DNA from: Isoetes taiwanensis
Taxonomy: Eukaryota > Streptophyta > Lycopodiopsida > Isoetales > Isoetaceae
Assembly: GCA_021234155.1 (NCBI GenBank)
Contig: JAJEKV010000037.1
Coordinates: forward strand, 1,420,171 to 1,484,170
Reading direction: 5' to 3'
Length of the DNA: 64,000 nt
A program made the translations under genes and the position numbers. Below the pieces are notes generated by a model. That model did not search any database. It had not been told where the DNA came from and was given only the letters and a program-made list of their open reading frames with translations. Position 1 is the stretch's first letter, and each line of letters begins with the position of its first letter. Shown here in pieces: positions 11,553 through 47,846 of this stretch.

Positions 11553-11559
11553 ATGCAGT

Positions 11560-12477
11560 TATTTACCTTGTCTAGGGCACCAGTGCTCCCACAAGCCTTC
11601 AAACTGCATAGGAAAGTTACAATATTAGGACGGATGCCTTCAAGCTGCATACTGTCAAACCACACTAATGCTTACATGGCAAAACCATGTTCCATATATC
11701 CTACAATTACTTTAGTCCAACATACAACATTCCGAACAGGCAAATTGCTAAAGATTTCACGTGCCTCTCTGAGTGATCCAAACTTGGCATACATGTCCAT
11801 CAAAGTGTTGCCAACAAAAAGATCTTTGTGATAACCTTTCTGCATAATCTGGACATGTAGTTTTCGCCTTTTTTATGGCTCCTAGGCTGCCACAAGCCTT
11901 TAAGCAAGAAATATATGTTGCAGCATCTGGAAAGATACCCTCTAGCTGCATCAAGTCAAAACATCTAAGTGCCTCTTTAGCAAGTCCATTTCTAGCATAT
12001 GCTCCAATTAGAACGTTCCAAGACACAACAGTTTGAACTGCCATGTTGTTAAACACATTGCATGCCTCTGAAATGAAGGCATACATGTGAACCAAGGTGT
12101 TGTCCGGCAAAGATATTTCTTTCAAGTCTGTTTTAACAAATCTCAGCATGAATCACTACCAATTTCCATGTTCTTTATATTTGCACATGCTCTCAGAAGA
12201 ACCACAAAGGTATAAGTACTAGGTTGAATGCTCATACCACCGCATTGCATGTGGCAATTGTCCATATCCTATATATCCTAATATAAGGAATGTCCAACAG
12301 TTCCGATCAATCAACCTACAGAAAACCTGAGCATCAAGCACACTGCCACACGCCACCAACATTGGCACAATATGGTTGCCCAAATGCTCATGCCCTTCTA
12401 GCCCATGCTTGGATACATTCTCATGCACACGCCTAGCACAAGATACATTTTCTTCCTTTCTGCAATCCTGCACGCTG
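11560..12477 (-). pseudogene. PLS-type PPR protein, broken
   Basis: Three minus-strand frames, in order from high to low coordinate, give successive PPR motifs. First is CARRVHENVSKHGLEGH with LGNHIVPMLVACGSVLDA. Next is VVSWNVLIGAYARNGLAKEA with DLMQLEGIFPDAATYISCL and LKACGSLGAI. Last is LFVGNTLMDMYAKFGSLREA with VVCWTKVIVGYMEHG and MQLEGIRPNIVTFLCSLKAC. These are plant organelle RNA-binding repeats of the PLS type. Frame changes near 12150 and 11850, and an internal stop after YMEHGFAM, show a decayed copy. It is present only in duplication copy 1. Confidence 0.88.
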
Positions 12478-13036
12478 GAAATAAAATTCCCAATGCAAGA
12501 AGGCTCTGATATCCGTTGCTTCCTCCAAGCCAGTCATCTCTGTTTGCTTATTCCATCAAGCGAACCAGAAATTGTTGCAATATCTATTGAACTTACTATG
12601 AAAAATTCCAACTGGCCTCATATGCAGCAGCTAACATAGCTCTGATAAGATGTCCAATCACTAAAAAATAACAACCACACTATTGCCATCACAGACATCC
12701 GCTGTAAACATCTTGTGATTTACGAGTCCAGTACAGCAAATGGATGGAGTACAATACCTCTACCTCCAGATGTCTTGTCTGTAGACAACCATTAGACCAT
12801 CTTTGGAGGTTCTTTCGATATTATAGATTTGCCTACTACATACAAACATACAAATGGTTTCATCTTGTCATCTATCACTATAAGGTCTAAATGGACATGC
12901 TAACTTCGGACGTGGATCACATCGTTGTATTCTTCTTAAACATAAATCTGCATCATAGTAGAGATAAGATTCTTGTAATTGTTGTTAAACCTCTGTTTTA
13001 CCGATACCAATATACTTGGAAAAATGCCAACCATAC

Positions 13037-13325
13037 CTATTATGTTCTCACACATAGTCAGATTTGGGAGCACATTATCCTTCATTGCTGCAAGGTAAAG
13101 CTCAATCCCAGCTTCATAGTCATCTTCCCTGTTCATTAATAGATACTAGAGGATAACTTTTACCTACATATGCTTTATATTTCCTTTAATTGAATCTTAC
13201 TTTTCACTAGCTTCTAAAAGAGCACTGTAAGTAATTTGGTTAGGCGCAATGCCAGCCTGTTTTGCTTCAGTTAAAGCTTGAATAGACTGCCGCAACTGAT
13301 TTCCTTTGCCTAAAGAAGAGATAAT
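13037..13325 (-). pseudogene. P-type PPR fragment (MRL1-like), two exons
   Basis: On the minus strand, 13325-13203 encodes QSIQALTEAKQAGIAPNQIT then YSALLEASEK. After what looks like a short intron, 13139-13037 encodes EAGIELYLAAMKDNVLPNLT then MCENIIG. The alternation of A-helix, turn and P-N-x-x-T-Y/M matches P-class PPR repeats. The wording resembles MRL1, which stabilises chloroplast rbcL mRNA; I infer that from memory. No start or stop is attached, so this is an isolated fragment. Confidence 0.6.
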
Positions 13326-13438
13326 TAAATTGCCAGCTTATAGAAATGCTTGAGACATGAATACAGCTATTTTATACATTCTCATTGACTTACAAAGGGC
13401 CGTGATCAGGGCATTTAAGGTAGAGACAGTGGGTTGCA

Positions 13439-15128
13439 TACCATCTCCCATTTAAAGACGGGGGCTTGTTTGTCAAAAGATAGAGCCATGTGAAATCGTT
13501 GCTATTAGTTTCATCCGGATTCCAAGGGCTGATCCTTCCACCAGGCGAAACGTCGGTCCTAAATAGCTGTATTAGTTTTGTTCGACCGTTCTGCACTCTG
13601 AGCATCCTTTGTGTTCTGCATTGCCGGTAAGCCTGCTCAACCTGAATAGCTTTTCTTATGCGGAAAAGCTTTTTAGATTCAGATTTGTAGCTTCAGTTGG
13701 CCAAATTTGATTAATGGAGGTCGCATGCATATATTATGCTTCACTGAGGATCCCACTCACAAAAAACGGTTGTTGGAGATGACGGGCCTAAAATTCCAGA
13801 CTCTAGACTGATGTCATTTGTGTTCAACTCTTCAGAAAGGACAGTGTTCTGCATCACAAATGAAGGCATTGCAGTAGAAGAGGCTGAAAGCCCATTGTCG
13901 AGGTTTGAAGGAAGCACAACTTCTAAGTCCTCTAAAAGGAAATCTGCTTCATTAGCTTCCTCAACAGGTAGCTGAGGGTAAGACATTGTCGCAGTGGAGA
14001 TAGCCCTGTGAAAACCTTCTGCCTTGGAGCCTTCCTGTTGTGTGGGCACCAGAGACGGTGTAACTTGCAGAGTGCCAGAACTAACATGGGAGGAGGGTCT
14101 CGCCCCTTGAGGAAATTTGGCTGTTGATGCTGGTGGAGGAGACTTTTTGAACCTCAGCCTTACTACATACACCGACACGCCCTGAAAATGACTTTTCATG
14201 CTCAACTGCTGTCCTTTTCTATTGATGATTGTCTGCCTTTGAATACCTAGTATATGTAGAACAATTACTAATGTCATATATGCCCATCATAATCTTATTT
14301 CACAAAGAGCTTCAATAATGAAAACCAAATTTACTGTTCTCTAATCATTTTGAAGGCCTCCTTTGTGGCATACGGAAGGCCAGTTAATGGATCACGATAC
14401 CTGCACATTCAAATATTTCAGGATTGCCATTTCGGAAAATTTATGCCAAACGATTAGATTAAGTTAAAAAGGACAAAGGTCCTACATGTCTTACCTTGCA
14501 GGTAAACCAGTAATAACGCACACGTGCCTATCTGGATCTGCAACAACATTCCATTATCAGTGCCAAGGTCCGTTTTTAATTAATAAATAAAAATGTTGAA
14601 AGAAGTTGAATTCTCCTAAATCAAAAAATTATTTCTTGACTATCCAAGGCAAAAGATAAAAAACCGTAAGCTTTTGAGTTAATAACCTCTGGAAATGTAG
14701 AGACTTTTGTGAATTCCAGTACGTTCTTACCTGGATATAGAAAAAAGAAATTAGGTTTCTAGAACATACAAAATTCAATCACCTCTCAATATCGATACAA
14801 ATGCACACCCCCAAGCGAGTAAAAATCTGATTTGAGGCCCAAAGATAAAGAAGTTTCGGATAATAGCTTTTTCTTCACCTCCTCTTCCCGAGCCAAAGAT
14901 CTTCTCTAATGACCGCGGGTTCATAATCTCTAAAAAGCAGATGAAAATCATTTTCTCGCATAAGACACGTTCCCAAAAATTATTGTCCTATCAATATAGA
15001 TGCTAAACAAACTGTTTGTCTTTGCTTCTAGAAGCATATCCTCTTGTGTCATCCTCCTTTCCTCCTCGTTTCCTTTTTTCTTCTTGACAGGCTGGAACAT
15101 AAGAGACGTTGCATAAGCAATGAAAACT

Positions 15129-15159
<31 letters not shown>

Positions 15160-17544
15160 GGTCATCGCGATTTTGCACCGCAACCAGATCAAACCTCCTT
15201 TTTCTTTAACTGATGTCTAATGCTGGATGAAAAGAAAATCCTGGCATTCCCACATGAGAACTAACCTCTGGACATCAATGCAGTTAAACAAGGATATGGC
15301 AGAGGATAAAATGGATTGTGGAAACCGACATAACAACGACTGCTTTTTTCAGCAAACAAATCCCAAGCTGTGCTAGACACAATTAGTGGATTCTTCTCAA
15401 AATCTCAAGAACAGAGCAAAACTTCATTAAGATGCTATAGTTGTTGACAATCGAGGACAAGCAGATGACATTGTTTGGGGTGTTCAGAAATGCTGTCCAT
15501 AAACACACAATTTTAGCATAGACCTTCCAAACAGTTTAACCTAAACCTACTGATAAATCATTTATAAATTACCATGTCACAAATTGAAATGGAAGAGAAA
15601 CTTTTGTCGTTAAAGTGAGCAAAGTACGGTATATGAAAAAACATGAATACATGCAATTCAATACATTAGCATGAATAGAATAGAAAACATGTTTTTGCTT
15701 CATAATGATTTACAGTGCCGGAAAAAGAATCTATTGCATACCTTTTGAGTACTCTGTAAAGCTGCACGCAATGCGTCTCTCTCAGCTTGCCTAACAATTA
15801 CGGCCATTCTTGAGGATTTTCTTACTATTTTCTCCCCTTCATCTTGCAGCAATTCTTGATTATCAACATCAGCAAAGTCGAGCTTCTTTTGTGTTGAACT
15901 GGACGGTTGAGACAGTTTTGACACTTCTTCCACGTCTCCTTCAGTTGCTGCAGCAACAGCTCCTTCTAAAACATTCATTCCCCTTTTTATAGGCTTTGAT
16001 CCCTTTTTCTTGTCGCTAAATGCCTTCTTCCCTGGAAATATCCGTCTCTTCTTAACTTGCTTCCTGCCCAAAATCAATACTCAGACCTCCAATGTAACTA
16101 AACAAATTTCTACATGCTGCACAAAATACGTCTCTTGAGCAGAATAACCCACCTCTCATTTTCCTCTGCTTCTTCATTATCTGATTCAGGCACCTGGAAA
16201 TATAAAAGTTGATCTTAGCATTAAATCCTTGAAATAATTTAAACTGCAACACATGCTTTTAAGTTTGAAATGTCCAGCTCAAAATCCAACTATCGTACAT
16301 AGACTGCACAGAACTCTGGCTTCTCAGACACCAGGAATAATAAGCCAAGTCTGAAGTTTCACTTATGTGAGCACAAAACAGTGCATCTAAGCTATCTTGA
16401 ATATATAAGGGGATTAGATGAACAGGTTGCATCATGCATTAATAGTAACTCTTATTTAATGCATACTTCTGCTCCTCACGCAATTAAAGGTAGATGTCAC
16501 ACGAGCTTCAATTTTTGCATGGAAAGCAGAAAAACACAAAATCCAAAATGATAGAGTAGGCAAGTACAAAAACGGAATGGATACGTATTGACATCAGTTC
16601 GTCTGCTTACATCTTGATCAAAATCGACTGTCAAAGACATCAACTTGCTCTTCTTCCTCTTCATACTCATTATCAACTGCATCCTGTAGTCGAATAAAAA
16701 CTTAGTCAGGTGCATAAATAGGTTCTGTATTCTTTATAAGATGATGAATGCATGCACCATCAGATTCAACAAGTGAAAACACATTACGAGAGTAGACATT
16801 GCACAAGACATATTCAAGTTGTTAATTCTGAAGTTATATGTATGATTTTCATTGGAAAGAGCAAGGATATCACAAGATATTCAAGATACAATAGTTCTAT
16901 AATCCTAATTCCAATGTATAGTTTGTACATGTAAATATGCATTACCAGAGTGGCATTGCATAAGATGTATTGAAATTGTTAATTCTGAAGTTGTATGTAT
17001 GACTTTTATTGGAAAGAGCATGGATGTCACAAGATATTCAAAATACTATAATTCTATAACCCTAATTCCCACCGACTCCTTCAGAGATAAGATTAGGATT
17101 TGCTATGGGAATGTAAAACTTGATCCGGTGGCAAGATTTTCATCCTTTTGTCGACTACTACCACTAATTAAGTGTGTCCCCGCTTCTTTGAATAGACTAT
17201 CTTACTAATGGTTAAATTTGTGAGTGATCTTCCTTGGTCTGTTACTATAGAGCTATAAGGCGGCAAAGTTACTTGAGAACGGTCAAGAAAATGATATCGT
17301 TTAGCATTTTATGAACAACGCAACAAATAATGAAAACTTCGTTTTCTATTTTCACAAAAAGCTTGCACCTCTTTCAATGCCCCCGATTCCAAAATATTTC
17401 ATCAGCTTCCGTTTCCTCGTCAAACCAACTTAGCCATCCTATACATAACAACGATTTCAAATGTCATGCCAGGTAAATGAAGGCTGGAAAAGGAGAAAGT
17501 AACCTTTTGCCCCGGCTGGCACGAGAGGCGCGAGGAAGGCCCAT
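13439..17544 (-). pseudogene. SWC2: SWC2/YL1-like gene, duplication copy 1
   Basis: The exon order is the same as in the better copy at 56889-60704. Exon 1 (17504-17544) encodes MDLPRASRASRGK. Exon 2 (17369-17438) has an extra A that creates a stop just after MAKLV. Exon 3 (about 16612-16686) has an inserted base near 16626. Further exons encode VPESDNEEAEE, the long basic exon (15743-16066), the MTQEDMLLEA exon near 15030-15100, the LAREEEVKKKAIIQK-like exon near 14815-14930, and the last exon ending at 13741. A small insertion and deletion in the last exon (14160-14230) change its start. SWC2/YL1 is the SWR1-complex subunit that handles H2A.Z-H2B. This copy should not make a full protein as read. 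The downstream shared 3' flank reaches 13439. Confidence 0.85.
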
Positions 17545-17736
17545 GGCTATGGCGAATGCGCTCCGACGAGATTTACATTGTTTTAAAGGTTTACTACTTG
17601 TTTTTTGGGTTTCTGGTGGAATATTCAGAGATTCACTCTGTTTTATTGGCTGAAGGGTATTCGCTTAAAGGAAGGAAGTATGAGACGGTCACAATACAAT
17701 ATATCGGATAGTAGGCATTCGAAAACCACAAAAGCC
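17545..17736. other. Short spacer between SWC2 promoter side and LINE fragment
   Basis: Shared with 47136-47330 and partly with 60705-60830. No gene was seen. It should contain the SWC2 upstream region, but no clear TATA box is visible. Confidence 0.4.
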
Positions 17737-18036
17737 CTATACAATGTGTCTCTACCACTAGGACGAAAAAATCCCATGCGGGAGGAAAAACCCTTGTAAT
17801 AGGCATTCAAATTCCCTATCTGGGCACTCAAATTCCCTGTGCTGTGAGGAACTCTCTGACGGTGGAGACTTGAAGAATGTAGGACGCGAGACGTGCAACC
17901 ATTGGCGAAGCCAGCAATTGATGAATTGCTATCTCAGAGCATCTGAGATCGGCATGAGCTGCTCGGATGTGTGCATATGCCGGACACTCCCGTAGAGCAT
18001 GGTGTTCATCTTCTACTATCTGCATGTGACAACATT
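17737..18036 (-). pseudogene. LINE ORF2 C-terminal fragment, copy 2, left part
   Basis: On the minus strand this encodes VEDEHHALRECPAYAHIRAA and the final residues to a stop at 17828. It is the 3' part of a LINE ORF2 fragment split by insertion of the LTR retrotransposon; the other part resumes at 31018. The uninterrupted equivalent is at 47331-47846. Confidence 0.8.
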
Positions 18037-18041
18037 GGCAT
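18037..18041. repeat. 5-bp target site duplication, left (GGCAT)
   Basis: GGCAT directly precedes the LTR (TGTGACG) and recurs at 31013-31017 directly after the LTR end (CGTCACA). The homologous copy at 47633-47640 has one GGCAT and no element. Confidence 0.95.
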
Positions 18042-19698
18042 TGTGACGTTCCAGGGGAATATACGCTATAAATACGTATATTCCTGGACCCGTCACCATA
18101 CAAGACTACCTAGGTAGCCTTGTATAGGTAGCCTTGTATACATTAGAAAGTGGCAAGGGGTGCACATCTAAGTTAATTGTTTAACTTAGATAACCTTAGG
18201 ATAAGACCCATTTCCACATGGCCTTATCCTATTGGGCAATCGCCACACGGCCTCATCCTAGTGGTGCCACGTGGCATCCCATGTGGACCCACACCTATAT
18301 TAGCTCTAACCCTAACCCTAGACCCTTTTCCCTGACCTAGCACCTGAACTCTCATCTACGTGCCCGAAACCCCGTTTCGAGCACCGTTCGTCATAGCCTA
18401 GCCTGGAGCAGCAGCCCCTGGGAGGTGTGTATGATCGTTGAGGGAGCAAGCCATCGAACCACGTCGAGGAGCATGGAGACGCCAGGGATGGGAGGAAGCG
18501 CTTCTGGAGGAGGTAGGTTGAGTAGAGTTCATGATAGTTCATCTGGAAGTTAGCACTCCAGATGGGTTAGTATTTCGTGTCTAGAGTAGAGCCACCCTAG
18601 AACCTTCGTTGAACATCTTGAACCCTAATCAAAGAACCCTAACTGTTAGTTAGATATGTATGATTAGGTTAAGATGTTCATATGATATTGTTCATGATGT
18701 GATATATGTGTTGTTGGTTGATCATGTTGTTCCTCTTGTGTTGGGAAGGGGGGTAGAGACCTAGGGCCATATGTAGTATGCTCCTAGTGTAGATCCCTTA
18801 GTTCCTATTAGATGCGGCCTGTGCATAGGAACCCACCGGGCTATGGACGCTACGGTGTGACTCAGCACTACACAACGGGGCTAGAGACAAGATGGAGGGA
18901 GGATCCCTACCGAGTGGGGGCTACGGGGGATCCCATAGTGGGCTAGGCTTATGGTCGGTCACTTCGTGTGGGTCGGGCATGGGTCCGACACCTCCTGGGG
19001 CAATGGTGTTGCCCTGCCTCTCAAGAGTTGCAAGTGTCAGCTTGGCTCTTGTTTTGGGGTCAGTCGGGTACGAATCGTGTGTCGTCACGATTCTCTAGTC
19101 GCCCGTGGAGCCTCTAGACCCCGGGAAGGGGAGATGCAACCCTTCCTACCTCTACAGACCAGGGAGATGCAACCTGGAGTAGTCCCGATGGGTGATGCCA
19201 TGGGATTGCGTATCCGGAAGGTTAGAGTCATGTCAGAGCCTGATCTAGCCCATCTGCAAAGTATGCACAGGAGGGGCGGATGGAGTGGTCAACCCTAGCC
19301 ATTGTCTTATGCCAGCCCCGCCATTGTTATGACTCGGTCTGATCTATCTTGAGGCCTAGCCAGTCAGTCGACTTCCCTATGCGTCGGAGCCATGGGTAGT
19401 AGCTCTCATGCTTTATGGTATATGATTATGTTCTTTGCGTCTATGGATATGTGGATGAGCTACCCTTCGAGGTAGTATGTTATATTGCTTTGTATTGCTA
19501 GTTCTGATGATGTTGTGCTTCCACTGTGATAGGAGCCTATAGGAGAAGGGCACGCAAGACACCTTCGTGTCCCCTACCCGCACTACGATCATCTCAGAGT
19601 GCGGGATAGACGGAGGGCCTGTGCGGTTGTTGAACCGGACGGGGGATTTCCTGTCGAGTGTACGGCCGGGTGCCGTATATTTAGCAGGGAGCATCACA
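18042..19698 (+). repeat. 5' LTR
   Basis: The LTR starts TGTGACG and ends CATCACA, giving the usual TG...CA ends. It matches 29384-31012. Compared with that copy it has an extra 14 bases near 18340, extra bases near 19225 and lacks 3 bases near 19055. TATAAATA at 18067-18074, inside a palindrome, is the likely promoter TATA box. Confidence 0.97.
18043..18097 (+). promoter_or_regulatory. Palindrome enclosing a TATA-like box at LTR edge
   Basis: GGAATATACG (18056-18065) and CGTATATTCC (18075-18084) are perfect reverse complements flanking CTATAAATA. Outside them, CCAGG pairs with part of CCTGG, and GTGACG near the LTR start pairs with CGTCAC near 18092-18097. The palindrome is kept in the 3' LTR with one change. 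It could be a dimeric factor site, a hairpin in RNA, or a terminal structure used by integrase. Confidence 0.6.
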
Positions 19699-19699
19699 A

Positions 19700-19711
19700 T
19701 GGTATCAGAGC
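19700..19711 (+). promoter_or_regulatory. Primer binding site for initiator tRNA-Met
   Basis: TGGTATCAGAGC lies one base after the 5' LTR. It is the classical plant primer site complementary to the 3' end of initiator tRNA-Met. Confidence 0.97.
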
Positions 19712-20273
19712 GATGTTCTTGGTTGACTAAGAACTAGCACTGACCATAACCATGAAAGTAGTCTAACAAGCCTATAGGGGTGAGAAATAGAAGTTTCCAC
19801 CATCGAGCCTCGAAAATGAGGGAAAAAATTTTCCCTAGGTAGTGAGTTCGAGATTAGGCTAAGTTAGAAGGAATGAATGAGTCAAATTTACCTTCTAGTA
19901 AATTTGGAGTGAAAATTATGCATCTGCATCAAATTTCACCTAAAATGGGTCGAAGAAGCATGCCAATCTGAGACCCGAGTGAAAAATGGCGCAAATCCAT
20001 AATTAACACTTCAAACTATTAGGAAATTTGGAATTTTAAAGGTATAATACGAATTTTAGTATGTGTATGAAGAATTAAACATATATTAATATTAAGGGTA
20101 CTATGGTGTAATTAATAAGGGGGGGCTAATAAGTAGGCCTATTAATGGTAGAGAATATTCCCAGGGACCCTCCCTTTTTAAATACCCCTGACACCTCATT
20201 TTCCCTCCAACCTTTTGCTCCTCCTTATCTCTCTTGCTCAGCCTTACGTCACCCGTTTTCTAGACCGTTAAGT
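19712..20273 (+). other. Untranslated leader of the retrotransposon
   Basis: No conserved frame was seen. The AT-rich part (20030-20130) is followed by a pyrimidine-rich stretch (20180-20260) that leads to the ATG at 20274. Confidence 0.5.
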
Positions 20274-21360
20274 ATGGCTCGAACCAAGCAGACAGCGAGG
20301 AAGTACAACGAGCGACCTACGCTCTCGATGGCACATGTAGCAGCGGGACGACATACGAAGAAAATTTAAGAAGGGGGAAGAGGAGTTTCCCTCCAGCAGC
20401 AGCGACGAAACCTATCACGATGCTGAGGAGGAGGCGCCTAGCAGCCGCAGCTCTTCGTCGGCGGGCACCCAGAGAACTGGCGAGTCCCGCCACTTTGGGC
20501 CTCACTCGGACACAGAGGTGGAGGAGCAAATTGAAGAGCAGGTTGAAGAGGCGGGCCCTTCAGTGCCCAAGAAGAAGGGCAAGGAGAAGGTTGCAGAGTG
20601 GCCGGAAGAGAGGGCTGCGAGGCAGAAGAGGGAGCGCGAGCGGGAGCTGAGGGAACAGGAAAGAAGGACCAAGAGAAGAAACGATCGGCCCCGAAGGACC
20701 GTCGTGATTGAAGAGCCTCCCCGACGTGAAGAGGAGGAAGAAGAGGAGGTAGAAGCAGAGGACGAGGAAGACGAGCGCGCCGGGGAACCTTCAAACCCCG
20801 ACGCAAGACCACCCTACCCAAAGTGGCCCGAGCCATCTAAGGTGGTTAAGAAGCAGAAGGCGGGTGAGCGATCGTTCGCCTTGAAGGAAGATCGACTCTT
20901 CAGACGTCGCCTCAAAGTGTACCAGCAGTACCTCCGTCGTTGGACGAGGTATAACGACTGGTACTGCCGCCAGAACATCCAACGCCACGTGGAGGGGGGC
21001 CGACCAGCAAAGAACCAGCCCAAACCGCCGCCGCCACGACCGGAGAAGCCGAAGAAGGTCCATCACGGGCCTAACTCTCCGCACGCCCGAGTTTTTCGGG
21101 AGATTAAGCACTTCCAGCAGTGCACTAATCTCCTGATTAGGAAGGCGCCCTTCGAGCGGCTCATGCGGGAGGTTATGCAGGAGTTCGTCACCGACTATAG
21201 GGTGACGTCGCTGACCACGAGGGTGTTGCAGGTAGCTGCGGAGGCCGAGCTCACCCAACTCTTCGAGGAAGGAAACCTCTGCGCGATCCACGCGAAGAGG
21301 GTAACCCTGATGCCCAAGGACATACACTTGGCGCGTCGCATCCGCAAGGAATACCCTTGA
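20274..21360 (+). pseudogene. Histone H3-like protein encoded by the retrotransposon (one frameshift)
   Basis: From the ATG at 20274 the first residues are M-ARTKQTARK, identical to the H3 tail through K4 and K9, then diverge (Y instead of S10). This frame stops at 20369. The frame one base over is open from 20341 to 21360; an AAAA run at 20361-20364 is the likely site of a one-base indel. It continues with a Ser/Glu-rich then strongly charged linker, an aromatic-rich segment ([18 protein letters not shown], about 20917-20970), a Pro/Lys-rich hinge, and a C-terminal H3 fold from 21097. The fold shows [20 protein letters not shown], then [15 protein letters not shown] and LARRIR. Against canonical H3 recalled from memory it aligns without gaps over about 87 residues, about 60 percent identical. 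Loop 1 has canonical length, while HFQ-x2-TNLLI and RVTLM resemble plant CENH3. About 361 codons in all, against 136 for H3. Confidence 0.92.
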
Positions 21361-22067
21361 GGATGCAATTTTGTATAAATTAATATAACTGATAAATTGT
21401 CCCCCTATAAATATAAAATTTTGTTTTGCAATTGGTATTAGATAAATTGCTCCTTGCATTAGATAATTCTTTTGAAAAATTATTAGATCAAAAAATGCGC
21501 GAACCCTCGAAATCGAGTCACACCGCGCAGGACCCACCTGCGTTCGGGGCGCAGAGGCATTTTGCGCGCTCTGACCCGGTTTCGCAAATTTTACCCCAAT
21601 CCAACCCCAATTCACGCAGGAAAAATTCCTAGTTAGATTAGAATCATCCTAGTAGTTATCCTAGCATCTTTAATTTTTCCAAAATCTTCGGTAGAACTTA
21701 GAAAAGACCCAAATCGGGTCACACCGCGCACGTCCGCGACGCAGAGGCAATTTGCGCGCTCTGACCCGATTTCGCCCATTTTCGCCCAAATTGACCAATT
21801 TCGACCCAACAAACTGCCAGGTAGTGTTTCTTGCTTTGCTTTGCTTAGATTTGCACTTCATGGTAGCTCATTTGGACACCTATAGCCATAGAATAGAAGT
21901 CCTCCCCATCAAGAACCCTTGTGCACGGAACCCGAGGCATCCCTAAGTCTATAAAAAGGGGCCTCATTTGTCATTTTCTCCCCATCAAAACTGCTCTCAG
22001 GCCTTTTGGCGATTTCCTAGCTCTTTGCTTATCCCCATCAACCATTTTTCATAGCCATCTCTGTTCA
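21361..22067 (+). repeat. Spacer with a 70-bp direct repeat
   Basis: The AT-rich part (21361-21480) is followed by two related segments, 21525-21597 and 21716-21787. They share CACACCGCGCA, CGCAGAGGCA and TTTGCGCGCTCTGACCCG. No coding frame is convincing. The GC-rich repeats contrast with the AT-rich surroundings and might be regulatory or a recombination scar. Confidence 0.7.
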
Positions 22068-23021
22068 ATGGCGCCATCAAGCTTTGTTAGATGGTACAAT
22101 GACGCCAATCACATCCGTGATTGTCCTGCTGATCAAGTCTTCCATGTCTTTGATCATCTCTTCGATCTTCATGCCACCTTGACCAGAACTCCCTACTACA
22201 CTGACATCATTTGTCAATATGATCAGCACATTCTACCCTCGGAAGTTAGCTTGCCACCTAGGGGAGGGAAATGGGTTTCCTTAGACTCTCTTACCCAAGC
22301 CATAGGTGGGGGATCTAGGGGCAAGAATAGGTTGTGGGGTAGAACCAGAAACATGCCAGACTATATGACCTGTAAGCATCATAGGCATAGGTACCTCTCA
22401 GCCCAAGCAGCCTTAGCTTTGTTCATGCAGTACAGGGCAGTCAACCAACCAGGGGAGCCGTCAATTCAACCTTTGGATTTGGCACCTCTCGACACTCGGA
22501 GGCAGCAGATAGGAATCCATGAGATCGAGACTGCGGAGTACGAACACTACGGCTCCACATCGGAAACACCTATGTTGCAGATTGAGCAGGATTATGAAGA
22601 GCAAGAGGAAGAAAACCCAAGTTGGGAAAGGAGGGAGGCAAGAAGGATGGAGAGGCGTCTAGCCCGGCAACAGGAAGTACTAAGGCGAGACTTCGAACCG
22701 CCAGTTGGCATTACGGCCCTGACTCCAGTGATCGTCGACGGCGAAGAGTACATATTCGCCACCGACATCCTCAACCTTCCCTATTGTCAAGAAGAAGGTC
22801 TCAGGATTGATGAGCTCCTAGGCCTAATTGCACAAGAGCAGGGCAGTGACTTCATCGACTACTCTTACCAAGAAATTCCAAGGGAAGTAGCCGAGCGACA
22901 CTCCTATGCGGGGGAAACTATGTCAGACATCCAAGCTTACCAGCAGATAAGGCAGATGTTTCAGCAGCAGCAACCCATCATCCCAGAAGAGGAATTCCAG
23001 GAGATCCAAAGCATTGTATAA
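22068..23021 (+). CDS. Retrotransposon extra ORF, unknown protein (317 aa)
   Basis: The ATG at 22068 is preferred over the upstream ATG at 21921 because the intervening stretch looks like leader. The protein starts MAPSSFVRWYNDANHIRD. It has an aromatic/His-rich N-terminal half (including LPPRGGKWVSLDSL), a Glu/Arg-rich likely helical middle (EEQEEENPSWERREARRMER) and an acidic C-terminus ending QQQQPIIPEEEFQ then EIQSIV. No membrane segment, zinc knuckle or protease motif was seen, so it is not an envelope-like or second Gag protein by these signs. It overlaps the next frame by 8 bases. I do not recognise the family. Confidence 0.7.
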   Translation: MAPSSFVRWYNDANHIRDCPADQVFHVFDHLFDLHATLTRTPYYTDIICQYDQHILPSEVSLPPRGGKWVSLDSLTQAIGGGSRGKNRLWGRTRNMPDYMTCKHHRHRYLSAQAALALFMQYRAVNQPGEPSIQPLDLAPLDTRRQQIGIHEIETAEYEHYGSTSETPMLQIEQDYEEQEEENPSWERREARRMERRLARQQEVLRRDFEPPVGITALTPVIVDGEEYIFATDILNLPYCQEEGLRIDELLGLIAQEQGSDFIDYSYQEIPREVAERHSYAGETMSDIQAYQQIRQMFQQQQPIIPEEEFQEIQSIV

Positions 23022-23586
23022 GCCAGGAAGAGGCCCAAGCTCCAGCCGACCAGTGCGCTCCAGAAGTATGCGCGAAGCTTCTAGCAGCATCAACCTGGAA
23101 AATGCGACTACTATGTGGAGGGACCACGAGGATCTTATGGCATTAGATATCTTCGGCGAAGCAGCTGGGAGAAGAGGTGCGGGAGCCGGGGGCGGAACCA
23201 AGGGCAAATCACTCAGGTACTATCTTCCGGCCCTTAGCCAAGGGCAGATGATAGTTTTCCATAAAGAATTCAGCCCAAGGGGTGAAGAGTCCGTGGCACT
23301 CCTTATAGCACTTTCAGGCTTCGGGCAGCATGCGAGAATAGACGTGAAAGTAGACCATGTTATTCTCTTCAAAAGATCTGTAGCCCTTCATGCTCTTGAC
23401 TTCGCAAGGGGCCACCTCAGGGATGCACACTTGTCAGTAGTGGCGGCAACTGCACCAGAACTTCCGGCACCTCAGATGGCAAGAGCATTGGAAGGAGGAT
23501 CGGCGGCAAGAACCCTGCAGAACGTCGGCAAGGGGATAGGATTGAAAAATGTCAAGAACTTCTTCAAATCCATGAGGAGGCACTGA
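23014..23586 (+). CDS. Retrotransposon extra ORF, unknown basic protein (up to 190 aa)
   Basis: The frame is open from 23014 and overlaps the previous ORF by 8 bases in the +1 frame. The first ATG in this frame is at 23068 (MREASSSINLENATTMW). A Gly/Arg-rich patch (GEAAGRRGAGAGGGTKGK) precedes a globular-looking part with RYYLPALSQGQMIVFHKEF and VALLIALSGFGQHARIDVKV. It ends in a basic amphipathic tail (GLKNVKNFFKSMRRH). It could be a separate protein, the second half of the preceding ORF reached by frameshifting, or the product of a one-base error. Not recognised. Confidence 0.65.
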   Translation: MYKPGRGPSSSRPVRSRSMREASSSINLENATTMWRDHEDLMALDIFGEAAGRRGAGAGGGTKGKSLRYYLPALSQGQMIVFHKEFSPRGEESVALLIALSGFGQHARIDVKVDHVILFKRSVALHALDFARGHLRDAHLSVVAATAPELPAPQMARALEGGSAARTLQNVGKGIGLKNVKNFFKSMRRH

Positions 23587-23800
23587 TGAGAAAAATTGCT
23601 TTGTTAATTAAGTAATTGTATTAATATTCTCTTCAGTTATTATCATGTACTTTATATATATTAATTAATGTCTTACCATGATCTTAACTTGTAAGTGGAA
23701 TTTTCATATGATTTCTTTTATGCCTAACAACAATTGAATTGTAAGCAAGAATGATTAATGTGTAACCCAAATAACAAGTATTGATCATTAATCCTTGCAG
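23587..23800 (+). other. AT-rich intron-like block before gag
   Basis: A very AT-rich stretch contains the donor-like GTAAGT near 23691 and ends with the acceptor-like ATCCTTGCAG at 23791-23800. The gag frame is open backwards exactly to that acceptor, which suggests spliced expression of gag. Confidence 0.45.
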
Positions 23801-23898
23801 CAAGGAACACCGGCTCAGGTTCTCAAGGCCAAGGCCGACATCACCAGTGGGTACCCAGAAACCTATTTGGACGTGATCAGGATGACAACAACGAGGAA

Positions 23899-25080
23899 AT
23901 GACGCCGGAAGCAATCAACGCAAGGCTCGTCCAGATGAGGAATCAGATGCATCAGCTGATCCACTGGGCCACACCATTGATGAATGCCCAAGAACATGCA
24001 CCACCTCCACCTCTACCTCAACAAGGCATTGAAGAAGGTCCACAGCAGGAGGGGCAAGACAATCAGGGGAATGTCAGAGACAGGAAGAGGAAAAGGAAAA
24101 ACAGAAGATCTCCAACTCCACCTAGCTCCAGTTCATCAGATACTTCAGATAGCCAAGACAGTTCTAGCTCAGAAAGTGAGTCCGATACCTCACAGGTAAG
24201 AGCCAGGGCAAGGAAGGCAGGGGACTATCAGAAGAAGGTTGACAGTGCTATGAGCAATGTGTGGAAGACTAGGAAGTTGGGTCAGTTCTCAGGCAAGAAC
24301 AGGTCAGGTATGGAGGCTGAAGCTTGGCTTGACGAAATGGAAGAATTTGGCAACTCCTACGGCATGAAAGATAAGGACATAGGAAAAGTTGCTACAGCTA
24401 ACCTCATTGGACCAGCAAGGATTTGGTGGAAAGGATATGCGAAATCTAACAAGCTAAAAAGGAACAATTGCAGATTCAAGACCTTTAGCAAAGCTTTCCG
24501 CACTATGTGCCAAGATCGCACACGAGCAGGCAGATCCAGCAGTTCTATAGATTGAACCAGGGCACACTGTCAGTAGCAAAGTATACAGAGGAATTTATGC
24601 GGCTCAGGCTCCATGTTCCTGGAGTATCAGAAAGGCAAGCGGCTGATACCTATATTGAAGGGTTGAACAGCAATATCAAGAGGCTAGTTAGAGCAATCAA
24701 CCCAAAGTCAGTTGCAGAAGCTGAGGACAAAGCTATAAGTTTGGAGGAAGCACCATCAACCCCAGCAGAGAAGCAGTCGACCTTCAGGGGTAAAGCTTCA
24801 GGGCAGTACCAAGGGCAGTACCAGAGTAAGCAATCAGCAGCTACACCTTCAGGAGGCCAACAGCAAGGAAAAGCTCATGGTAAGACCTTTGGGGATCGTA
24901 AGCCGCAGAATGCATCAGGGGGCAGCGTCCTAAAGCGTATTTTAGACAGCTTGACTAAAGAGAAGAAACAGGAATGTATTGAGAAGAAGTTATGTTTTAG
25001 GTGCTTCCAGCCAGGGCACCGAACGCATCAGTGCCCATTCGTTATGCAGGCAGCTTTGGCAGAGCTTGGGGATTGGGACT
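23899..25080 (+). pseudogene. gag: gag: capsid and nucleocapsid, one frameshift
   Basis: From the ATG at 23899 (MTPEAINARLVQMRNQMHQL; the frame is open back to 23800) a Pro- and Ser/Asp-rich segment leads into the Ty3-type capsid region, with KLGQFSGKNRSGMEAEAWLD and LIGPARIWWKGYAK. The frame shifts near 24505-24510. The capsid continues in the next frame with [20 protein letters not shown] then MRLR. A CCHC zinc knuckle, [14 protein letters not shown] (about 24994-25035), marks the nucleocapsid that packages the RNA. Gag and pol share one frame after the shift, so they would be made as a single polyprotein. Confidence 0.93.
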
Positions 25081-28000
25081 CACCAACAGAAGCAGATGAA
25101 GACGACGACCAGCAGGAGGCCCAGGACTTCATAGATGGTGAGTGCCATATTTGTGCAAACATTGAGTCAGATAAGATTGAAAATCAGTCCACAGTCATTG
25201 CGGCTGAGGGGATCATAGATAGCAGTCCATATCTAGTATTGATAGATACAGGTAGCTCTCATAATTTTGCCTCTCCTAGGCTAGCTGCCCTAATGAAGAA
25301 CAAGGTATTGAAGTCTAAGCCAAGGCCAGTTGCTATGGCAAACGGCGCCATCCGGCACACTAAGGGGAAGAGGATCATATTCGACATAGACCTTAGTGGA
25401 AGTAAGTGGCCGATGGGAGCAGAAGTCATGGAAATTGGAAGGTATGACCTGATAGTGGAAATGGAATTCCTAAAGCCAGCGAAAGCCATGATCGACTGCG
25501 ACCGCAATGAAGTCTCCATGACGGCACCGGACGGCACCAAATTCATAGTGAAAGGTAAGAAGGCAGCTTCTTCTATGCAGTGTATTTCTTTGAAGCAGCT
25601 AAGGAAAAGTATAGAAAGAAATAAGGTGGATTACCTCTTGAGGTTAGAGGCAATTGAGCCCAATAAGCAGGATGGAAGTGACCAACTCCGGCAGCTACCA
25701 CCTTATAGGGGTGTGGAATGTGAGATCACATTAGCTCCAGATGCTAAGCCTACCAGCAAGGCACCTTACAGGATGAGCACCCCGGAATTGATTGAACTCA
25801 AGAAGCATCTCCAGGAATTGCTTGAGCTTGGGTTTATTAGAGCAAGCGTGTCTCCTTTTGGAGCACCTATACTCTTCGTCAAGAAGAAGGATGGGAGCTT
25901 AAGAATGTGCATAGACTATCGCCAGCTCAACAAGCAGACGATTAAGAATAAGTATGCATTGCCAAGAGCAGATGATTTAATGGACCAGCTCCAGGGAGCC
26001 AAGGTATTCTCTAAGATTGACTTAAGGTCAGGGTACCATCAGATAAGAATAAAAGAAGAGGATATCCATAAGACCGCCTTTAGAACGCGGTATGGTCACT
26101 TTGAGTTTACAGTAATGCCCTTTGGGTTGTCGAATGCTCCAGCAACCTTTATGCGCCTCATGAACGACATCTTCAGAGATTTCTTGGATGAGTTTGTTAT
26201 TGTATTCTTCGACGACATTCTAATCTACAGCAAGTCTATTGAAGAGCATTGTCAGCATTTGAGGAAAGTGTTGGAGAAGTTGAGATGTCATCGGTTGTAT
26301 GGGAAGCTCTCCAAGTGCCACTTTGCAACAGGTAGAGTGGAATATTTGGGGCATGTGGTAACATCAGAGGGAATTTCTACAGATCCATCTAAGATTGAGG
26401 CAATAGTTGATTGGCCAGCTCCAAGGAATGTGGCAGAAGTAAGAAGCTTTCTCGGGTTGGCGGGATATTATAGAAAGTTCGTGAAGGACTTTGCTAAGTG
26501 GGCATCCCCTTATCGGACCTCACTAAGGCCAAGAAGATTAAGGATTGGACTAGCCATTGGTTAGAGAAAGTCCAAGCTTCCTTTGAGAAGCTCAAAGAGG
26601 CCTTAACAACAGCGCCAGTGCTTGTTCTCCCGGATCCGAGTAAAGATAAGTTGGTAGCAACAGATGCAAGCAAGATAGCAACAGGAGCAGTCTTGATGCA
26701 AGAAGGAAGGGTAGTCGCCTACGACTCGAAGAAGATGAACGATGCCGAGCAACGCTACCCAACCCATGATCAGGAGTTGCTAGCCATTGTCAGGGCATTA
26801 AGGATATGGAGGCATTATTTGCTGGGAAGGAAGTTTCAGTTGGATACTGATCACCAGAGCCTTCAATATCTTTTCACTCAACCACTCCTTAATCTAAGGC
26901 AAAGGAGGTGGATGGAATTCCTTGAGGAGTATGATTTTGATATAGTATATAAGCCCGGCAAGCTTAATGTTGTGGCAGATGCTCTCTCTAGGAGACCATT
27001 TGAAACAAGAACGCATTGTAATGCGATTTCCACTCTTACGAGTGAGTTTGGTAAGAAGATTGAAGAGACCCTGCAATCAGATGCTGATTTCAAGGAAGTA
27101 TGGGCAAGTCTATCTAGGGAAGCCAGAACAGATAAGGAACGAGAAGCCTTCAAGCATTATAGAAAGGAAGGTAACTTGTTGTATCACAAGCATAAGTTGT
27201 GTGTGCCCGAATCGTCAGGTATAAGGAAGTTAATTCTTCATGACACACACAACAGCCCAATAGTAGGGCATGCAGGGTTTATGAAGACCTACTTCAAGAT
27301 TCGAAGTAGTTATTTCTGGCCAGGGATGAAGAAACAGATAGCCAGATATATTCGGGAATGCCAGTTGTGTCAGCAGACCAAAGCAGAGCAGCTTCGAATT
27401 CCAGGTGCTTTAGAGCCATTGGGGGTGCCAAATGCTAAGTGGGAGGTCATAAGTATGGATTTTATCACAGGACTCCCTAGAACTCTTCGAGGCAAGGATG
27501 CATTAATGGTTGTCGTAGACAAATTATCTAAGATGGCACATTTTGTGCCTTGTAGAACTACGGACACCGCATTAGATACTGCCAAGTTATTTGTAAAGGA
27601 GATTTTTAGACTCCATGGCATGCCTCGGGAGATAATTTCAGACAGGGACTCCAAGTTTATGAGTGCCTTTTGGCAGGACCTCTTTAGCACCATTCAGACG
27701 AAGCTCTCCATGAGCACGGCATATCATCCGCAGACAGATGGTCAGACGGAGAGGACGAATCGCATCATCGAGGATATGCTTCGAAGTTATGTGTGGAATA
27801 AGCAATCCAAGTGGGATGAGTTCATCCACTTGGTGGAATTCGCCTACAATAGTGCCAAGCAGGAGTCATCCCAGATGTCTCCTTTCATGGTGAATTATGG
27901 GTACCAGTGCCTAACCCCGGATACTTGGCACAATCCCGTGTCAAAGGTTGAAGTATCCCAGCAGATGCTTGGTGATATGCAGCAGTTGGTGGAAGAAGTA

Positions 28001-28504
28001 AGGGGTTACTTATTGGCAGCAAGAAGTCGGCAGAAGAGTGTAGCCGACAGGCACAGGACCGTAAGGGAGTTTAAGGAAGGTGATAGCGTTTGGTTGAAGA
28101 TCAAGGTTAAGCAAGCTAAGCTTCGGATTGGCAGTTGCAAGAAGCTTGCCCCTAGGTGGGCTGGTCCGTTCAAGATTTTGGAGAGAGTGGGCTCCCAAGC
28201 CTACAAGTTGGATCTTCCGGCCCATCTTAAGGTTCACAAGGTTTTCCACGTAAGTTTATTGAAAATGCACAATCCTAACCCTGAGGAGGTTTTGGATACT
28301 CCAACTTTGTTGAAAATGACGGAAGAACAAGTGGAAATTGTGCCTGAGTTACTTCTTGATAAGTCATTCAAGAAGACTAGGAGGTCTCAGTTCCTCCAAT
28401 ACTTGGTCAAGTGGAAGCACTTGCCCGTGGAAGACGCGACTTGGGTATTGAAGCAAGATTTGGAGAAGCAATACCCAGATTTTATGAAGGAGTTTGATGG
28501 GTGA
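25081..28504 (+). pseudogene. pol: pol: protease, RT, RNase H, integrase with chromodomain
   Basis: The domains run in order. An aspartic protease has [13 protein letters not shown] (about 25235). The reverse transcriptase has [31 protein letters not shown] and the catalytic FFDDILIYS (about 26205). A one-base frame change follows near 26500-26515 (after FVKDFAKW). RNase H has ATDASKIATGAVL and TDHQSLQYL. The integrase has a HHCC zinc-binding part (H...H...CQLCQQ) and a D,D-35-E core with SMDFITGLP, SDRDSKF and DGQTERTNR. The C-terminal chromodomain (about 28390-28500) has FLQYLVKWKHLP and DATWVLKQDLEKQYP. The first aromatic-cage position looks substituted, whereas both Trp residues are kept. 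Chromodomains steer integration to marked chromatin. Confidence 0.96.
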
Positions 28505-29370
28505 GTCGTCTCCGACTTGGTCGACCCCGACTTGCCAGGAGGTTAGCTTAGTATGCTTCTTAGTTAGCCTTAAGTTCTGGCTCATGTCTTCTAGTTGGTA
28601 AGAATACATGTGCCAGAATCTTGGAACGTGTGGGCGATGATGGGATACGCCTTTAAGGCATTCTCTAGGCCAACACGCACCAAGAGGTGCGCATGACAAT
28701 TAGGGTCATGTGAGTGAGGAATGAGGCATGGTGGGCGATGATGGGACATCGATCGGATGCTCTCTATGCCGCGATGCGGGGTACGCACACCTGACCGTAG
28801 GAGGGTCATGGTGAAGGTTAAAGTGATCATGCGCGATGATGGGATCGTGAGACGTTCCCTAGCTTAAGACCCTTGGGGCATGATGCACTAGGGGTACTCG
28901 GCACCGGGTAACCGAGTACAAGGTAGCACTTGATCATGGGCGATGATGGGATCATCCTAAATGGTCCTTAAGCTCAAATCCGAAAGGGCCATGATCGAAT
29001 GCAAGGTATTGTAAGGGGGGTGGTCCCCTAAAACCACAAATTTATTAATTAAACTAACGTAATGTGCTCCTTGTGCAGACAAGTGAGAAGAAGCATCGGG
29101 GTGGGGCGCATTACGAGAAGATGGGGGAACCATAATTTAGATTATGAACCCTAATAACTCTTATAATAATGTTTTGAATTATTGTAAGAAGGAACCTTGT
29201 TAAGGCTATATAATTTTGTATAAGTACAAATATAGCCTAAATTTTGACATCTAACTCTTTAATAGGAAGTTGATCGTTTAAATTAAATTTTAAGTGTATG
29301 TTCTTATGATTGTTTTGCAGGATAGAGTAGGCTCGTCACCTTAGCGCAATGCTGAGGACAGCATTGTCCT
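28505..29370 (+). repeat. 3' internal non-coding region with ~100-bp degenerate repeat
   Basis: The motif GCGATGATGGGA occurs four times, near 28633, 28735, 28831 and 28941, with similar flanking words (GGTCATG, GATCATG). Two acceptor-like sites follow, CTTGTGCAG near 29079 and TGTTTTGCAG near 29320, separated by AT-rich DNA. No protein frame was seen. Confidence 0.7.
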
Positions 29371-29383
29371 AAGGGGGGGAGAA
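29371..29383 (+). promoter_or_regulatory. Polypurine tract
   Basis: AAGGGGGGGAGAA lies directly before the 3' LTR, the standard primer for plus-strand DNA synthesis. Confidence 0.95.
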
Positions 29384-31012
29384 TGTGACGTTCCAGAGGA
29401 ATATACGCTATAAATACGTATATTCCTGGACCCGTCACCATACAAGACTACCTAGGTAGCCTTGTATAGGTAGCCTTGTATACATTAGAAAGTGGCAAGG
29501 GGTGCACATCTAAGTTAATTGTTTAACTTAGATAACCTTAGGATAAGACCCATTTCCACATGGCCTTATCCTATTGGGCAACCGCCACACGGCCTCATCC
29601 TAGTGGTGCCACGTGGCATCCCATGTGGACCCACACCTATATTAGCTCTAACCCTAACCCTAGACCCTTTTCCCTGACCTATCTACGTGCCCGAAACCCC
29701 GTTTCGAGCACCGTTCGTCATAGCCTAGCCTGGAGCAGCAGCCCCTGGGAGGTGTGTATGATCGTTGAGGGAGCAAGCCATCGAACCACGTCGAGGAGCA
29801 TGGAGACGCCAGGGATGGGAGGAAGCGCTTCTGGAGGAGGTAGGTTGAGTAGAGTTCATGATAGTTCATCTGGAAGTTAGCACTCCAGATGGGTTAGTAT
29901 TTCGTGTCTAGAGTAGAGCCACCCTAGAACCTTCGTTGAACATCTTGAACCCTAATCAAAGAACCCTAACTGTTAGTTAGATATGTATGATTAGGTTAAG
30001 ATGTTCATATGATATTGTTCATGATGTGATATATGTGTTGTTGGTTGATCATGTTGTTCCTCTTGTGTTGGGAAGGGGGGTAGAGACCTAGGGCCATATG
30101 TAGTATGCTCCTAGTGTAGATCCCTTAGTTCCTATTAGATGCGGCCTGTGCATAGGAACCCACCAGGCTATGGACGCTATGGTGTGACTCAGCACTACAC
30201 AACGGGGCTAGAGGCAAGATGGAGGGAGGATCCCTGCCGAGTGGGGGCTACGGGGGATCCCATAGTGGGCTAGGCTTATGGTCGGTCACTTCGTGTGGGC
30301 CGGGCATGGGTCCGACACCTCCTGGGGCAATGGTGTTGCCCTGCCTCTCAAGAGTTGCAAGTGTCAGCTTGGCTCTTGTTTTGGGGGGTTCAGTCGGGTA
30401 TGAATCGTGTGTCGTCACGATTCTCTAGTCGCCCGTAGAGCCTCTAGACCCCGGGAAGGGGAGATGCAACCCTTCCTACCTCTACGGACCAGGGAGATGC
30501 AACCTGGAGTAGTCCCGATGGGTGATGCCATGGGATTGCGTATCCGGAAGGTTAGGAACTAGCCCATCTGCAAAGTATGCACAGGAGGGGCGGATGGAGT
30601 GGTCAACCCTAGCCATTGTCTTATGCCAGCCCCGCCATTGTTATGACTCGGTCTGATCTATCTTGAGGCCTAGCCAGTTAGTCGACTTCCCTATGCGTCG
30701 GAGCCACGGGTAGTAGCTCTCATGCTTTATGGTATATGATTATGTTCTTTGCGTCTATGGATATGTGGATGAGCTACCCTTCGAGGTAGTATGTTATATT
30801 GCTTTGTATTGCTAGTTCTGACGATGTTGTGCTTCCGCTGTGATAAGAGCCTATAGGGGAAGGGCACGCAAGACACCTTCGTGTCCCCTACCCGCACTAC
30901 GATCATCTCAGAGTGCGGGATAGACGGAGGGCATGTGCGGTTGTTGAGCCGGACGGGGGATTTCCTGTCGAGTGTACGGCCGGGTGCCATATATTTAGCA
31001 GGGAGCGTCACA
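29384..31012 (+). repeat. 3' LTR
   Basis: Starts TGTGACG and ends CGTCACA. It matches the 5' LTR with about 20 substitutions, nearly all transitions, and three indels. Confidence 0.97.
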
Positions 31013-31017
31013 GGCAT
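31013..31017. repeat. 5-bp target site duplication, right (GGCAT)
   Basis: Pairs with 18037-18041. Confidence 0.95.
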
Positions 31018-31267
31018 AATCCGTACCCCAGCGGCCTGTCTCAATTCTGAGATGGTGGGACCCTGTCCTCATTGCAGCTATGGCTCTCCATTTCTTGGTA
31101 GAGATGTGTGCCTTCAAATATTGGTGAGGGCCATGTTCGAGTGACGGATTAACCTGCGTGTGGTAGTGCTCTGTTTTGCGCTTCGCAAGAGTGAGCACAT
31201 CCCACAGAGAGGCAGCAAAGCGCTCATTCAAATGCAGCTCATGTTCCTCGATATCCGGCATAGCCAT
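31018..31267 (-). pseudogene. LINE ORF2 C-terminal fragment, copy 2, right part
   Basis: The minus strand encodes HQYLKAHISTKKWRAIAAMR and HHLRIETGRW. It continues, across the LTR element, into the part at 17737-18036. Confidence 0.8.
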
Positions 31268-32299: not shown

Positions 32300-32671
32300 A
32301 TATCCATTACAGGAAAAGGGGGATTTTGCGGGGTTGCTTGTGGGAGATTTTAAGGAGAATGTGGGCATCATTTTTGATGTGATATGGCCATGTTTCTTTG
32401 CAGCATCAATGGCTCTCATGCCATATTGGTTATCAATGCTAGTAGATGCACCAGTTTGGGGAAGAAATGTTATAAACCATGTTGAAACTCGTCTTGAAAC
32501 AATATGAAGTGCAGTTTGTCTATATAATTTTTTTGCATCTAGCAGTTTTGTGCAAACCTTATTGTCCTCATCTGCATAGTAGGAAAGGTTGTTATAGTAC
32601 CCGATTGCCTGAAATAATATTTTTGCCATCTCCTGCATGTCAACAATGCCAATAATAGAGACTTGCTGCAT
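32300..32671 (-). pseudogene. Ankyrin-repeat protein fragment, copy 2
   Basis: The uninterrupted minus frame from the ATG at 32671 carries QEMAKILFQAIGYYNN, YRQTALHIVSRRVSTW and DAAKKHGHI. It has seven T where copy 1 has eight, so the frame is intact here. No flanking exons were recognised. Confidence 0.6.
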
Positions 32672-47330: not shown

Positions 47331-47846
47331 TACAATGTGTCTCTACCACTGGGACGAAAAAATCCCATGCGGGAGGAAAAACCCTTGTAATAGGCATTCA
47401 AATTCCCTATCTGGGCACTCAAATTCCCTGTGCTGTGAGGAACTCTCTGACCGTGGAGACTTGCAGAATGTAGGACGCGAGACGTGCAACCATTGGCGAA
47501 GCCAGCAATTGATGAATTGCTATCTCAGAGCATCTGAGATCGGCATGAGCTGCTCGGATGTGTGCATATGCCAGACACTCCCGTAGAGCATGGTGTTCAT
47601 CTTCTACTATCTGCATGTGACAACACTGGCATAATCCGTACCCCAGCGGCCTGTCTCAATTCTGAGATGGTGGGACCCTGTCCTCATTGCAGCTATGGCT
47701 CTCCATTTCTTGGTAGAGATGTGTGCCTTCAAATATTGGTGAGGGCCATGTTCGAGTGACGGATTAACCTGCGTGTGGTAGTGCTCTGTTTTGCGCTTCG
47801 CAAGAGTGAGCACATCCCACAGAGAGGCAGCAAAGCACTCATTCAA
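47331..47846 (-). pseudogene. LINE ORF2 C-terminal fragment, copy 3 (unoccupied target site)
   Basis: The same fragment as copies 1 and 2, continuous here. The minus strand encodes HQYLKAHISTKKWRAIAAMR, HHLRIETGRW and, after a frame change, VEDEHHALRECLAYAHIRAA. At 47633-47640 a single GGCAT marks the place where copy 2 received the LTR retrotransposon. Confidence 0.8.

Follow-up and report, generated by a model that had tools for sequence, protein, structure and literature searches.

The window, the 64,000-nucleotide stretch of Isoetes taiwanensis DNA analyzed here, contains a Ty3/gypsy chromovirus of 12,971 bp (positions 18042 to 31012) that is a complete insertion with clean ends and hosts a histone H3-like region (Table 1). 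This region comprises an H3 tail, a long charged linker, and an H3-type histone fold. It lies in sense with gag-pol, between the primer binding site and gag and within the two long terminal repeats (LTRs), where the initial annotation had placed it. Elsewhere in the window are a LINE represented by pieces of an RBD-like ORF1, endonuclease, and reverse transcriptase (1345 to 4276), a PPR-repeat fragment on the minus strand (11757 to 12149), a plus-strand fragment of an NLI-interacting-factor phosphatase (51853 to 52638), and large arrays of 300- to 380-bp repeats on both strands (33247 to 43674) that contain a tRNA-like GGTTCAAACCC stretch and may be tandem SINEs or a satellite. The LINE and the two gene fragments are in keeping with a land-plant host. 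Searches for tRNAs and Rfam families within the window returned no match.

Table 1. Features of the histone-bearing chromovirus and its unfilled paralogous site, in window coordinates
Feature	Position	Strand	Evidence or detail
Target-site duplication GGCAT, left copy	18037..18041	.	Sequence
5' LTR (TGTGACG...CATCACA)	18042..19698	+	blastn of flanks; ends read from sequence
Primer binding site TGGTATCAGAGC	19700..19711	+	Sequence; one base past 5' LTR end
Weak TATA-like TTTAAATA	20177..20184	+	Sequence; does not match TATAWAW
Tail frame, 31 codons, starts MARTKQTARK	20274..20369	+	Codons 20274-20366, stop TAA 20367-20369
Charged linker, 247 residues, +1 frame	20341..21081	+	Translation; AlphaFold2
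H3-type histone fold, H3 positions 44-135, then stop	21082..21360	+	Pfam, PDB sequences, gap-free identity, structure comparison
TATA box TATAAAAA	21950..21957	+	TATA scan; next downstream ATG is that of the second extra ORF
Second extra ORF, 317 codons	22068..23021	+	ORF; probably continued in frame 22951-23583
gag, first part	23899..24555	+	Retrotrans_gag profile positions 1-51, E 0.014, below cut-off
gag second part (profile 43-96), CCHC knuckle, protease, reverse transcriptase	24507..26564	+	Domain matches
RNase H, integrase, chromodomain	26498..28504	+	Pfam; chromodomain PF00385 above cut-off
Polypurine tract AAGGGGGGGAGAA	29371..29383	+	Sequence; directly 5' of 3' LTR
3' LTR	29384..31012	+	blastn of flanks; ends read from sequence
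Target-site duplication GGCAT, right copy	31013..31017	.	Sequence
Unfilled paralogous site	47624..47632	.	Window self-blastn

Two LTRs, a primer binding site, a polypurine tract, a target-site duplication, and the order gag-protease-reverse transcriptase-RNase H-integrase assign the element to Ty3/gypsy, and a chromodomain at the C terminus of the integrase (PF00385, E = 1.7e-10) identifies it as a chromovirus. The primer binding site is presumably of the initiator-methionine tRNA type. Blastn of the two flanks gave 96.7% identity between the LTRs; the 1660 aligned columns contain 20 mismatches and six indels (6 gap openings). Older segmental duplications of 93 to 99% identity occupy 8372 to 18041, 31009 to 33249, and 43705 to 60831, and because of them a copy of the insertion site lacking the element lies inside the window: in a self-comparison by blastn, 16252 to 18041 and 31009 to 32343 matched contiguous DNA at about 47624 to 47632 (97.3% and 97.2% identity, respectively). 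From the LTRs, target-site duplication, primer binding site, polypurine tract, empty site, and ordered gag-pol, it follows that the H3-like region is internal to one complete insertion and thus part of the element, as had been proposed. The gag-pol region itself is interrupted by two frame breaks: the gag domain is split over two frames, and reverse transcriptase and RNase H lie in different frames. Among the best 120 of 6526 protein matches, the nearest pol proteins are jgi and ena entries with up to 50% identity. Named relatives among the matches listed come from Pinus (up to 48% identity over 85%) and Adiantum (42 to 43%), and a Closterium pol has the top score among them, though with 41% identity over 51% of the query. 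Scans of viral contigs with the gag-reverse transcriptase frame, the window ORF, three H3 proteins discussed below (P0106, P0256, and P0075), and alignment A1 confirmed no relative.

The fold at the 3' end of the H3-like region belongs to the H3 type. It matches the Pfam Histone profile with 105.3 bits (E = 3.2e-30; cut-off, 26.4), a search that the initial annotation had recommended. The best 60 of 176 PDB-sequence matches are labelled histone H3 or H3 variants (best E = 4.1e-30); the top-listed match carries the label "Histone domain-containing protein." Identity to plant H3, estimated by eye at about 60% in the initial annotation, is 59.8% (55 of 92 residues, without gaps). Among the nucleosome positions of DNA contact and of the H3-H3 bundle, 11 of 13 and 8 of 8, respectively, are retained, F84 and Q85 being the exceptions. 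Substitutions include K56 to Q and K79 to V; the F84 position is V, and the RPGTVAL segment is altered. At the other end, the exact H3 N terminus that had been reported, M-ARTKQTARK, is present. The tail does not run from ARTKQTARKS through K36 into the fold: residues 1 to 9 of H3, including K4 and K9, are all that is retained, in a frame other than that of the fold in this copy, and K14 to K36 are replaced by the linker. The linker, described from the outset as long and charged, is composed of 17.8% E, 14.2% R, 10.5% P, and 8.9% K. AlphaFold2 applied to the translation of 20386 to 21357 predicted higher-confidence helices in the linker at residues 73 to 98 and 161 to 203.

The initial annotation read tail, linker, and fold as one reading frame, which did not hold. 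Linker and fold share a +1 frame that is open from 20341 to 21357 (339 codons) and overlaps the tail frame by 26 nt, and a tail-linker-fold protein cannot come from one frame in this copy. Because gag-pol is itself broken twice and the LTRs differ by six indels, decay of this copy would be the simplest reading of the shift in frame from tail to fold. A short intron or programmed frameshifting might also account for it; given the two interruptions in gag-pol, neither appears to be needed.

There are 14 ATGs between the primer binding site and the H3 ATG, the last of them at 20145. Translation of H3 from genomic RNA would therefore require an internal promoter, splicing, or some other device. 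The first ATG downstream of the TATA-like stretch at 20177 is that of H3. The element contains 10 TATAWAW sites, against 4.4 in mononucleotide shuffles; a scan of the element for this motif found none at the H3 start, and the idea of an internal promoter is thus weak for H3. The weak TATA-like stretch at 20177 and the good TATA box at 21950, each ahead of an extra ORF without an intervening ATG, suggest candidate internal promoters. The second extra ORF gave nothing above the cut-off in a Pfam search, and its single-sequence AlphaFold2 model was uninformative (mean pLDDT, 37). Judging from these reading frames, the element seems to carry two added genes ahead of gag.

The age of the insertion and the divergence of the fold differ widely. 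Substitutions between the LTRs amount to about 1.2% (20 in about 1626 aligned bases). At a plant rate of 1.3e-8 substitutions per site and year, the insertion would be about half a million years old, or older if the rate was slower. In the fold, 37 of 92 residues are changed relative to H3 (40% divergence). We compared these changes with column conservation in 75 other folds, those left of 204 after filtering for gaps and at 93% identity. At columns conserved in at least 95% of these 75 folds, 29 of 34 residues are retained and 5 are changed, versus 13.7 expected (hypergeometric p = 9.9e-5), and changed sites are less conserved than retained sites (p = 1.8e-6). None of 2000 neutral simulations to equal divergence changed as few as 5 conserved columns (minimum, 7), and 1713 of the 2000 gained a stop. 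Because 37 of 92 fold residues have changed in a pattern that avoids conserved columns, versus LTR substitutions of about 1.2%, the H3-like sequence is judged to have been under selection over a long period that preceded this insertion, whether it resided in the element or was a host gene; part of the constraint could stem from a host gene that was captured only later. A fold divergence far older than the insertion is not that of a fresh pseudogene, and we consider it very probable that the region is an element-borne H3 variant.

Long-linker H3 proteins are also found elsewhere. The protein searches covered the best 120 of 198 and the best 120 of 571 matches, and all counts of relatives are lower bounds; linkers were clustered after setting aside 13 proteins that contain multiple folds. 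The window's linker was not found in any protein among the matches listed (best 120 of 198). A fern long-linker family of five (P0057, P0069, P0078, P0097, and P0106; two from Adiantum nelumboides, one from Ceratopteris richardii, and two from ena contigs) forms a group of its own by linker similarity and in the fold tree (support, 98/95 and 93/86). Two of the five proteins start with MARTKQTARKDP, and the other three begin later. In shared derived fold residues with the window, these five occupy ranks 1 to 5 of 77 rows (permutation p = 0 to 0.0016), in a test that was set up after inspection of the alignment and whose p values site-specific preferences could inflate; at least seven other, non-fern rows likewise have p < 0.01, and two CENH3 sequences give p = 0.056 and 0.48. 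Among 76 rows, an aromatic residue at position 82 paired with an aliphatic one at 84 occurs only in the fern five, the window, and P0067. By hhalign, the window and the fern set are 48% identical over 107 columns, extending slightly into a proline-rich stretch before the fold; for the part of the window's linker that precedes its final proline-rich stretch, no match was detected. The two Adiantum proteins are 81% identical to each other.

Trees of the 92 fold columns place the window on a very long branch without a supported position. On these columns the AU test rejected neither a clade of the window with the fern family (p = 0.698; the constrained tree scored 6.4 log units above the free search) nor one with the two CENH3 sequences (p = 0.502). 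Log-likelihoods by placement are -2235.5 with P0067, -2237.0 with the fern set, -2238.5 with CENH3, -2238.9 for a single free run, and -2239.9 with P0012, which puts the P0067 placement 1.5 log units above that with the fern set; a partial LG+F+G4 search put the window beside P0243. A further type of long-linker H3 protein from ena contigs (P0075/P0256 type) comprises 47 linker clusters with about 380 members among the matches listed. In rows picked by fold motif, 10 of 44 start with an H3-like tail (AKTKQTERK, AKTKRTKRK, VKTKQTERK, or ARTKQTARK). Like the window's protein, these have a long linker, an H3 fold, and in some cases an H3-like tail, and their copies are many; unlike it, they have a fold nearer to canonical H3 and a linker unrelated to the window's. 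Multicopy long-linker H3s exist beyond this element, and the P0070-P0319 proteins, some of which start MAKTKQTERK or MARTKQTARK, may represent a second family of mobile elements that encodes an H3. One more long-linker family (P0012, P0020, P0035, P0038, and P0095) has an MTKTKTTKRK start in two of its five members and lies on contigs of up to 745 kb.

In the integrase chromodomain, aligned to solved chromodomains and read by eye, W45 is the sole residue kept of the three aromatic ones that form the H3K9me cage of type I domains; the residue at position 24 is nonaromatic, and L occupies position 48. Loss of cage residues one and three is the pattern given for type II chromodomains, whose binding partner is described as unknown, in the chromodomain passages of PMC6317226 and PMC3350952. 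That the element's chromodomain might read H3K9me on the element's own H3 is an attractive idea, weakened because two of the three cage residues are absent.

Our best explanation, offered tentatively, is that an H3 variant gene is carried as an additional ORF between the primer binding site and gag, where it would bias chromatin; the gene would be long resident in the element lineage or in a close donor lineage, with selection acting on the fold. The element's H3 would pair with host H4 and enter nucleosomes on element DNA or at target sites, and there the absent K27 and K36, the altered K56 and K79, and the bulky linker would yield chromatin that resists silencing or more readily accepts integration. 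For this nucleosomal, chromatin-biasing mechanism we infer expression, entry into nucleosomes, and benefit to the element alike, and we regard it as possible but short of probable. The changes at the DNA-contact positions F84 and Q85 and in the RPGTVAL segment speak against a nucleosomal reading. Alternatively, the element may have recently captured a divergent host H3 variant, copying the host's own long-linker H3 gene and carrying it passively. Related linker-plus-fold proteins are indeed annotated as plain genes in A. nelumboides and C. richardii, the constraint on the fern-type proteins would then be host constraint, and captured host genes are known from plant LTR elements, according to the part of review PMC7264820 that treats them. 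However, no close donor was seen, the linker before its final proline-rich stretch has no detected match, and the fern copies are diverse, unlike ordinary host histones; we think such a capture unlikely. No better chance is given to a packaging or targeting cofactor that would form no nucleosomes but would condense element RNA or cDNA or anchor the integration complex on chromatin. The charge-rich linker with its two long predicted helices and the presence of an integrase chromodomain would suit that role, whereas the conserved positions are those of nucleosomal H3-H3 pairing and DNA contact, and the loop in which the integrase reads its own H3K9me is weak. H3 needs H4 for stable folding, which also counts against a nonnucleosomal role.

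The remaining explanations are less probable still. The ARTKQTARK end could act as a decoy that soaks up or misdirects host H3K4 and H3K9 enzymes and readers, the fold serving only to stabilize it. By eye, K4 and K9 are kept in all 15 long-linker H3 rows with a tail-like start, while positions 2, 5, and 7 vary; yet the constraint was demonstrated for the fold, and the tail is out of frame with the fold in this copy, which leaves the decoy improbable. CRM elements aim at centromeres, and descent of the fold from centromeric CENH3 could target this element there too. The motifs EI(K/R)HFQ..TNLLI and RVTLM resemble Arabidopsis CENH3, and the corresponding tree was not rejected. In CENH3 (CENP-A), though, loop 1 is longer and W stands in place of F84, whereas the window's fold aligns without gaps to H3 and has V at position 84; the tail is an H3 tail, and derived-residue sharing with the two CENH3 sequences is not significant. 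We consider this origin very improbable, and equally so a single, dead event in which a processed H3 pseudogene fell into this copy, an outcome that the initial annotation had named as fatal to its proposal. The tail/fold frame break and the single copy of the element seen would agree with such a pseudogene, but a 40% divergence of the fold is too great for the age of the insertion and is constrained in its pattern, and the frame break fits the general decay of gag-pol and LTRs.

The resident H3 variant that we tentatively prefer accords only in part with the earlier proposal that the element captured a host H3 and reshaped it: the fold was reshaped under constraint, for far longer than the age of the insertion, but the element itself would be only a putative captor of a host H3, and the donor could have been an already divergent host variant. 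Extended to other plants, this reading would make such genes "selfish histones." Fern and perhaps other land-plant chromoviruses may have carried H3 variants for tens of millions of years, keeping the mark-bearing ARTKQTARK, turning the silencing-relevant remainder of the tail into a linker, and maintaining a fold fit for the nucleosome, thereby writing the state of their own DNA or landing sites; similar long-linker families of H3 from other genomes would then be separate inventions of this device. We advance this as a conjecture that could well be wrong.

Among the papers listed by targeted full-text searches of open-license literature, none reports a histone in an LTR retrotransposon, in line with the initial annotation, which knew of none. 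The closest precedent lies in Dothideomycete fungi, in which hAT DNA transposons captured H3 (Pseudocercospora fijiensis and Pyrenophora tritici-repentis; sections of PMC6710886 on the captured genes, as for all statements on these elements). As here, a mobile element carries an H3 coding sequence, captured without introns and amplified in the hAT copies; these are inactivated by RIP in Mycosphaerellaceae, and 23 of 26 are probably functional in Pyrenophora. The fungal elements are class II, with terminal inverted repeats, whereas the Isoetes element is a chromovirus, an LTR element of class I, and its H3, remodelled under constraint, is flanked by LTRs and gag-pol and not by inverted repeats and a hAT transposase. 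Those sections describe no linker between tail and fold, in contrast to the 247 residues found here. Viral genomes supply histones as well. CpBV-H4 of the Cotesia bracovirus joins host nucleosomes, as stated in portions of PMC5423620; it is likewise a histone supplied by a mobile or viral genome, but it is an H4 delivered by the wasp to the parasitized insect, and its function was tested there. Single H3s occur in a xenomavirus, a prasinovirus-related virus, and Sylvanvirus, with nucleosome formation expected (viral H3 passages of PMC9145170). They too place H3 in a selfish genome; they belong to DNA viruses and are 75 to 87% identical to cellular H3, versus 59.8% to plant H3 here. The main text of that review has no match for "retrotransposon" or "retrovir."

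Gain of a host-type domain as an additional Ty3/gypsy ORF has a parallel, with a different domain, in orchid elements that acquired an AlkB-type demethylase ORF (relevant parts of PMC9289625 and of the review PMC7264820). In PMC9289625, "histone" appears twice, in connection with the chromodomain and with histone demethylation, and the main text of PMC7264820, a review of plant LTR elements, has no match for the word. The chromovirus integrase chromodomain engages H3 chromatin as a reader of marks and is not itself a histone, as set out in parts of PMC3350952 and PMC6317226. In the Isoetes element, this domain is the one that lacks two of the three cage residues.

Transposons are targets of H3 marks, and chromoviruses are readers of them. 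If our interpretation is true, an LTR element with an H3 of its own would instead write nucleosome identity and would thereby have a direct route to escape from silencing or to the marking of integration sites. An arms race over H3 would become testable through one gene, and genes annotated as "histone H3-like" in plants could be genes of such elements.
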